Shown one piece after another: positions 13,095-14,463 of a DNA stretch of 35,876 bases (the first letter of the stretch is position 1; every line of letters starts with the position of its first letter). This stretch comes from an uncultured Bacilli bacterium (lineage in GTDB: Bacteria > Bacillota_I > Bacilli_A > RF39 > UBA660): assembly GCA_905235065.1 (NCBI GenBank), contig CAJOJR010000008.1, positions 1 through 35,876 on the forward strand, given 5' to 3'. Under the pieces are notes generated by a model. The model worked only from the letters and a program-made list of their open reading frames with translations. It ran no database searches and was not told the DNA's origin. A program made the translations under genes and the position numbers.

Positions 13095-13171
13095 GTCCTC
13101 GTAGCTCAGCTGGATAGAGCAACGGCCTTCTAAGCCGTCGGTCACACGTTCGAATCGTGCCGAGGACACCA
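13095..13171 (+). tRNA. tRNA-Arg (UCU anticodon), CCA encoded
   Basis: GTCCTCG...CGAGGACACCA acceptor pairing; D-arm GCTCAGCTGGATAGAGC; loop CTTCTAA; T-arm CACACGTTCGAATCGTG. Confidence 0.95.
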
Positions 13172-13172
13172 T
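13127..13172 (+). repeat. Direct repeat copy 1 (anticodon loop to CCA of tRNA-Arg)
   Basis: 46-nt sequence CTTCTAAGCCG...GACACCAT identical to 14418-14463. Confidence 0.95.
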
Positions 13173-13176
13173 ATTT

Positions 13177-13199
13177 AACTCAAATGAGTTCTTTTTTGT
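13177..13199 (+). terminator. Terminator of tRNA-Arg
   Basis: AACTCA-aa-TGAGTT-cTTTTTT. Confidence 0.75.
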
Positions 13200-13296
13200 T
13201 TAATAAAGTATTTACACTTTAAATGTAAAATGTATTTATAATAATAATATTAAGGATTAGTATGATATACTTTATAATAGAAAAGAGGTAAAAGAT

Positions 13297-14286
13297 ATGG
13301 AAGAAAAGAAAAAAAGTACGTCACCAATATTAATAGTGATACTATCAGTAGTTGGTATATGTTTAGTAGGGTTCCTAGTGTGGTATGGAGTAAATTATTT
13401 TAAAGGAGAAGAAAAACCGGTAGAACAACAATCGAGCCAAATAAATGAACAACCATCAAACAATAATTTAGAGAATTCTTCAAGCAGTAATAATTCATCT
13501 ACTAGATCACTTAAAATAACTGAATTTATTTCTAATAACAAGTTGCAGATGCATTATTTTAATTCTTTAAAAGGTACTGAATTGATTAATAATATTAATA
13601 ACTTTAAACCAGTTGAAGGATTAAAAAATAAATATGAGAATGATTTCTTAGTAATAACTTATTGCGGCTTTGATGAATGTAGAAATTTTAAATTTACTGG
13701 AGTAACTGGCCAAGTTAAAAAGGCTATAATGTATTATTATGAAGAAAGTGATGATGGTCCTGTTTATGTATTAACTGATAATAATGATTTATACTTTACT
13801 GAGGTTATTTTAGATAAGAATGATAAGGTTTATGAATTATCAAAATTAAGTGAAAATATTGTTGATGTAAAGTATAAAGAAACTTATTGTGGCTTTCCAG
13901 TATGTGGATGCGGATCTGGGGAATATTATTTTTTAGATAATTCTGGGAATTATTTTTTACATTATTATGATTTTGATAATTCAGACAAACTTGTTTTCAA
14001 AAAAATAGATAAAGAAACAATGTTTAAATATAATTTTGAAGGTGTTTCTTTTGATAAAACTAATATTAGGAACGGAGAAATATATTACAAAGATATAGCA
14101 ATAGACACAGTTATAGAACTCTCTGATGTAGATTTTGATTATGTAACAATTATAATTGGAAAAGATAAATATTTATATGAGATAAAAGAAAGTTCAATTG
14201 AAAAAGTGATTGACAAAAAAATAAAAAGTTATAATTTAAAACCTAATGGGTGTGATAATAATATTCTTACAATTGAATTTGAATAA
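13297..14286 (+). CDS. Uncharacterised membrane-anchored extracytoplasmic protein
   Basis: 329 aa; single N-terminal TM then Ser/Asn/Gln-rich linker and globular domain with FxxC pairs (YCGFDEC, YCGFPVCGCGSG). Confidence 0.75.
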   Translation: MEEKKKSTSPILIVILSVVGICLVGFLVWYGVNYFKGEEKPVEQQSSQINEQPSNNNLENSSSSNNSSTRSLKITEFISNNKLQMHYFNSLKGTELINNINNFKPVEGLKNKYENDFLVITYCGFDECRNFKFTGVTGQVKKAIMYYYEESDDGPVYVLTDNNDLYFTEVILDKNDKVYELSKLSENIVDVKYKETYCGFPVCGCGSGEYYFLDNSGNYFLHYYDFDNSDKLVFKKIDKETMFKYNFEGVSFDKTNIRNGEIYYKDIAIDTVIELSDVDFDYVTIIIGKDKYLYEIKESSIEKVIDKKIKSYNLKPNGCDNNILTIEFE

Positions 14287-14376
14287 GTAATGGCACCTCT
14301 TTATGGCACTCACCAACAATAATGATGTAATGCTCAAATAGAAGATGTGCATAAATAACTATAAATAAAGGGATTG

Positions 14377-14399
14377 AGAGAAATATCAATCCTTTTTAT
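14377..14399 (+). terminator. Terminator downstream of the 329-aa ORF
   Basis: GGATTGA-gagaaata-TCAATCC-TTTTT. Confidence 0.6.
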
Positions 14400-14417
14400 A
14401 TAGATTAAATCTGTTTT

Positions 14418-14463
14418 CTTCTAAGCCGTCGGTCACACGTTCGAATCGTGCCGAGGACACCAT
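14418..14463 (+). repeat. Direct repeat copy 2: orphan tRNA-Arg 3' half
   Basis: 46/46 identity to 13127-13172; no 5' tRNA half present. Confidence 0.95.

Follow-up and report, generated by a model that had tools for sequence, protein, structure and literature searches.

A single-gene island without an integrase at tRNA-Arg(UCU) of an uncultured Bacilli bacterium, probably a remnant of a tyrosine-integrase element

Introduction

The sites on which tyrosine integrases act combine arm-type with core-type elements. Among described systems, the closest to the locus reported here are the cis-mobilizable elements (CIMEs), decayed ICEs or IMEs that have kept their att sites and lost the genes for integration and transfer (PMC7563491; PMC5704250). 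CIMEs of Streptococcus salivarius carry cargo of 1.2-13 kb, and in S. agalactiae 215 CIMEs have been recorded at tRNA-Lys(CTT) (PMC7563491).

In this work we analysed a window of 35,876 nucleotides, which is contig C8 of an 878-kb genome in 40 contigs (G000). Within the genus it was compared with one other genome (G001, contig CAMVPB010000002.1), and searches were extended to genomes of the wider family. The window holds an island at 13127-14463 (Table 1) that is very probably the remnant of a tyrosine-integrase element inserted in the anticodon loop of tRNA-Arg(UCU).

Results

The single tRNA in the region is tRNA-Arg(TCT), identified by both ARAGORN and Rfam. The initial annotation had described an exact direct repeat of its 3′ half, and this was reproduced by a repeat search, in which 13127-13172 and 14418-14463 agree at 46 of 46 positions, far beyond chance; counting one mismatch, the match extends to 50 bp at 98% identity (13127-13176 against 14418-14467). 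The first base of the repeat is also that of the 7-nt anticodon loop CTTCTAA (13127-13133; anticodon 13129-13131), where the crossover probably took place. The second copy was likewise correctly described as having no tRNA 5′ half, the sequence ...AGATTAAATCTGTTTT preceding 14418. We rejected the displaced half as a structured RNA in its own right, its folding being no better than that of shuffles (z -0.37). The stretch behind it, 14468-14500, is homologous to the G001 sequence preceding murB. The murB frame of the window is broken near its 5′ end (14527-14660, with a 7-nt alignment gap against G001), and the listed ORF begins only at 14659; a real mutation and an assembly error are both candidates.

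Table 1. Features of the island and its borders, in window coordinates
Feature	Position	Strand	Basis or remark
Intact tRNA-Arg(UCU) gene, integration target, putatively rebuilt, attL side	13095..13171	+	ARAGORN, Rfam
Left repeat copy (46 bp), from the anticodon loop through CCA and one T	13127..13172	+	sequence, repeat search
Short hairpin and T-run 3′ of the tRNA, probable tRNA terminator	13177..13198	+	weak hairpin, -3.5 kcal/mol
TTTACACTTTAAATGTAAA, palindrome-like promoter element	13211..13229	+	common to 9/9 cargo-family copies examined
Gene for the 329-aa cargo protein with its N-terminal membrane anchor (helix, residues 10-35)	13297..14286	+	
Pair TGGCAC-N7-TGGCAC in the right arm of attR, probable arm-type sites for integrase binding	14291..14309	+	position, conservation
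Terminator hairpin of the cargo gene	14367..14396	+	-12.4 kcal/mol, z -3.9
Displaced 3′ half of tRNA-Arg, attR core	14418..14463	+	sequence, repeat search
Hairpin and T-run 3′ of the displaced half, putative old host tRNA terminator	14468..14500	+	

As an alternative without any mobile element, a segmental duplication covering the 3′ region of the tRNA had been put forward on account of a 14-bp match, TTTAATAAAGTATT, beyond each repeat copy. The match itself was confirmed, but not its value as a sign of a larger duplication. Matches as long occurred in 16 of 2000 shuffles of the AT-rich flanks and in 21 of 3000 random pairs of AT-rich windows, so that it is mildly unusual in such DNA, and its two copies lie in unrelated contexts, one upstream of the cargo promoter and the other in the murB promoter region. 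Identity stops after 50 bp with no in-register homology beyond the repeat, and the borders are of integrase type; moreover, no duplication is required to account for a repeat that begins at the anticodon loop, for the arm repeats or for the equivalent elements in other genomes. Segmental duplication was therefore rejected as highly improbable.

Between the repeat copies the cargo gene is the sole ORF that reaches 80 aa, and tblastn detected no integrase remnant there (best E 2.3). The ORF list and tblastn thus bear out the earlier description of a single membrane-anchored ORF without a recombinase. No integrase remnant was found in the G001 island either. The cargo protein matched nothing in Pfam or NCBIfam above cut-off and nothing in PADLOC, relatives of its ectodomain were not detected, and the single-sequence AlphaFold2 model (mean pLDDT 39.6) is usable only for the anchor helix. 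At useful scores the cargo family is restricted to this genus, with at least four copies in the window genome and five in G001, among them copies on contigs C15 and C21 of the former and C2, C3, C5 and C13 of the latter. Its members have the anchor and a promoter element of the TTTACAC..GTAAA type in common and differ in their ectodomains; the anchor and the variable outer part suggest a role at the surface or envelope. The other copies sit among housekeeping genes, for example rpoC and gpsA, and the possibility that they too are tRNA-flanked was rejected, no tRNA being found beside any of them.

Most of these other copies are preceded by a dispersed intergenic repeat of 300-400 bp, found at L018:6200-6720 and in at least 15 other places in the two genomes, with a fragment inside the window at 26459-26522. 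Read from its sequence, the repeat has coding capacity for a short hydrophobic peptide and is a candidate type I toxin-antitoxin unit; a match to BsrG was sub-threshold and is not counted as evidence. Elsewhere in the window, an ORF with a sortase-like TLSTC motif, recognised by eye (8281-9066, minus strand), lies beside a gene for a 668-aa SPOR-domain protein (9159-11165, plus strand).

To the right of the cargo gene the window carries the pair TGGCAC-N7-TGGCAC, of which none is expected in shuffled sequence. Its position and conservation suggest an integrase-binding site. From the start of the pair to the anticodon loop of the displaced half there are 127 bp in the window and 126 bp in G001; among integrase-type elements of the family the corresponding distance is 129 bp at the tRNA-Arg of G251, G038 and G113, 92 bp at that of G195, and 163 and 172 bp in the tRNA-Lys-type elements of G218 and G252. 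That the pair has been kept at a matching distance supports the proposal of a non-autonomous or decayed element made in the initial annotation. In G251, G038, G113, G218 and G252 the integrase stop codon precedes the pair by 13-22 bp, and in G195 the integrase lies farther away. In the window and G001 it is the cargo stop codon that precedes the pair, by 4 and 0 bp, so that the membrane-anchored gene with its variable ectodomain occupies the usual position of the integrase gene.

We then searched 389 genomes of the family with the spaced pattern YGGCAC-N7-YGGCAC-N(88-118)-CTYCTAAG. It matched in six, every time at a displaced tRNA-Arg half, and the reversed pattern, used as control on the same genomes, gave no match. 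An earlier pattern, in which the second repeat was defined more narrowly and the gap was different, had matched the window genome and G001 only. In the sixth genome, G022, a C-terminal integrase remnant of 71 codons is all that adjoins the pair. A search of 294 genomes for relatives of the G195 integrase yielded several that adjoin displaced tRNA halves with paired [T/C]GGCAC. The left arm, between tRNA and cargo, contains no TGGCAC repeats in the window or in G001, unlike in G195 and G251, and attL is therefore incomplete.

G195, a third genome with the repeat and a member of another genus of the same family, was found by searching with a 45-bp pattern of the displaced half. On its contig C6 an intact tRNA-Arg(TCT) (40640-40716) and a displaced half (4241-4287) enclose an element of about 36 kb, near whose ends TGGCAC-N7-TGGCAC also occurs. 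In the parts of the element that were read there are genes for a tyrosine integrase, a MobL relaxase and a coupling protein and, at L028:4806-14693, genes for an AbiA reverse transcriptase and for CBASS (cyclase, E2 and 2TM/SAVED-type effector). The anticodon region is common to the rebuilt tRNA and the displaced half, and their T-stems differ, the pattern that exchange in the anticodon loop would produce by giving the rebuilt tRNA the half that came with the element. This integrase-bearing element at the orthologous tRNA of another genus supports the tyrosine-integrase footprint that had been proposed for the window.

A looser tRNA-Arg(UCU) pattern was also run on a sample of 147 genomes, to which G195 does not belong. 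It matched in 118 of them, nearly always once, and true displaced second copies were present in G000, G001 and G116. G116 represents a third genus. Its intact tRNA adjoins an integrase with 39% identity to the G195 enzyme, and its displaced half was located on a different contig. The second copies of G070 and G100 were discarded as overlap artefacts, being complete tRNAs at contig ends. An assembly artefact is conceivable for the window too, whose genome is a metagenome bin of 40 contigs, but overlap artefacts look otherwise, as these two cases illustrate. Because the repeat recurs independently at this position in the separately assembled G001, there with a different cargo, this explanation was rejected as having almost no probability.

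The initial annotation had suggested examining relatives for an empty site, the same insert or a different one, and in the one relative available the answer was a different cargo with the same repeat and right arm. At the same tRNA of G001 a cargo gene is followed by a right arm 80% identical to that of the window and then by a displaced half that is identical to G001's own tRNA copy over 50 bp. The two cargo genes have the promoter and the N-terminal anchor in common, and their ectodomains are unrelated by the searches run; a gene elsewhere in the window genome shares 64% identity with the G001 cargo. In G001 about 400 bp, mostly dispersed repeat, separate tRNA and cargo, and the left arms of the two islands are unrelated. 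The old host flank lies directly 3′ of the displaced half in the window and beyond a four-gene segment in G001. This segment (L017:5933-8022, from displaced half to murB) is absent from the window; one of its genes is YunG-like and one HD-domain-like (below cut-off).

The age of the island was approached by comparing divergence along the locus. Both species have a 46/46 displaced half, although their right arms are 80% identical. Between window and G001, identity at fourfold sites is 57-78% in the genes for GerMN and SpoIIIAH, in murB and in a 390-aa gene, and 86-95% in two short conserved genes. If a 46-bp copy free of selection diverged as fast as the arm, its chance of remaining identical would be 0.798^46, about 3e-5. 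Neutral decay of one old insertion is thus unlikely, and the halves have either been kept identical or are recent. The identity could be due to separate recent insertions, to gene conversion templated by the tRNA or to selection, each of which would suffice.

It is possible, although we hold it with some reserve, that one old insertion was inherited by both species, gene conversion with the tRNA keeping the repeat while the ectodomain was swapped among family members. The right arms are homologous at 80%, near the divergence of the neighbouring genes; the promoter and N-terminal module occur in all family copies; and the relative of the G001 cargo at another place in the window genome fits such a swap. 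However, two different cargos meet the arm at the same 3′ junction, and a related copy on G000 contig C21 has another 3′ flank, so that simple homologous exchange has no right-hand crossover. The unrelated left arms also speak against it.

A less likely course is that the islands are mini-elements without int that are still mobile, integrated in trans by helper integrases and entering the two species separately. The differing cargo, the unrelated left arms and the identity of the displaced halves despite diverged flanks are in its favour, as is the four-gene segment that separates the displaced half from the old host flank in G001; if this segment arrived after the species split, the G001 mini-island arrived later still. 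However, the cargo family occurs at many places without tRNA repeats, so ordinary recombination could swap the cargo, and the genus is represented by two genomes only. An integrase aimed at tRNA-Arg elsewhere in the genome, which the initial annotation had suggested looking for, did not emerge. Genome searches detected none of matching type in the window genome or in G001, and the two tyrosine recombinases of the window genome are of Xer-recombinase size and lie on other contigs. The lack of a matching integrase in either genome and of repeats in the left arm speaks against easy movement now.

Discussion

The course of events that best accounts for these data begins with recombination between the attP of an element and the anticodon loop of tRNA-Arg(UCU). 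The element's 3′ half would have rebuilt the tRNA, and the host's old 3′ half would have been pushed to the far end. The int gene was probably lost later, through deletion or replacement, and the transfer genes would have gone as well. What would be left is a remnant of 1.29 kb, bounded to the left by the rebuilt tRNA; its right end would consist of the attR arm carrying the TGGCAC pair, the core and the displaced half. The evidence against descent from a tyrosine-integrase element includes the missing integrase remnant and the incomplete attL in both islands. Because the left side lacks arm sites, the island is probably stranded for the most part today, and any movement would depend on an incoming integrase, through accretion or as a helper. 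Beyond the decay of a single element, we think it improbable that mini-elements without int, made of a tRNA 3′ half, a variable surface-protein gene and a single arm, are repeatedly delivered by the integrases of other elements, the species thereby swapping a surface gene at a fixed place.

The island is best filed as a CIME-like decayed island of a known kind and a very small example of it. Its attR is present with core, displaced target half and arm sites; its attL consists of core and rebuilt tRNA, with no arm-type repeats between tRNA and cargo; and it has no genes for integration, excision or conjugation. The arm geometry is that of integrase-bearing elements and G022 provides an intermediate with a truncated int, which would fit descent from an ICE or IME, although the island contains no remnant of an ICE or IME gene. 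At its right end the island resembles a CIME in its workings; because attL is incomplete and this descent is conjectural, the likeness as a whole is not complete. The island is no ICE or IME itself, having neither an integrase and a relaxase of its own nor the conjugation genes of an ICE.

The locus illustrates the degree to which an element that integrates in tRNA genes can shrink and still have a legible recombination end. Remnants of this kind are missed by island searches based on integrases, and the method of the CIME survey could not, by its authors' account, detect single CIMEs (PMC7563491). The arm-plus-core signature finds such islands without an integrase gene. In this uncultured gut-type Bacilli lineage tRNA-Arg is a recurrent landing site, and if cargo is indeed exchanged there, the site would offer a route for surface-gene variation.

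In keeping a recombination site while having lost the enzyme, so that any movement would need a helper, the island resembles CALIN arrays, MITEs and other 'hitcher' elements (PMC11389934), which, however, use other enzymes and sites. Like CIMEs, it is a small region from a rebuilt tRNA to a displaced 3′ half, with one cargo gene and no integrase or transfer genes; unlike them, it stands alone rather than in tandem, has no left arm sites and carries cargo from a dispersed host gene family. The tRNA-Arg(CCU)-type elements of G251, G038 and G113 have their pair at nearly the same distance from the displaced half, and the spaced pattern also matches G022; they differ from the island in carrying an integrase (truncated in G022), a CCU-type half and CGGCAC as the second repeat. 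The ICE-like element of G195 uses the same tRNA-Arg(UCU) and the same TGGCAC-N7-TGGCAC, its displaced half beginning 2 nt earlier. Unlike the island, it measures some 36 kb and has integrase, relaxase, coupling protein, CBASS and AbiA, and the genes adjoining its right arm, 92 bp from the core, are defence genes and not int.
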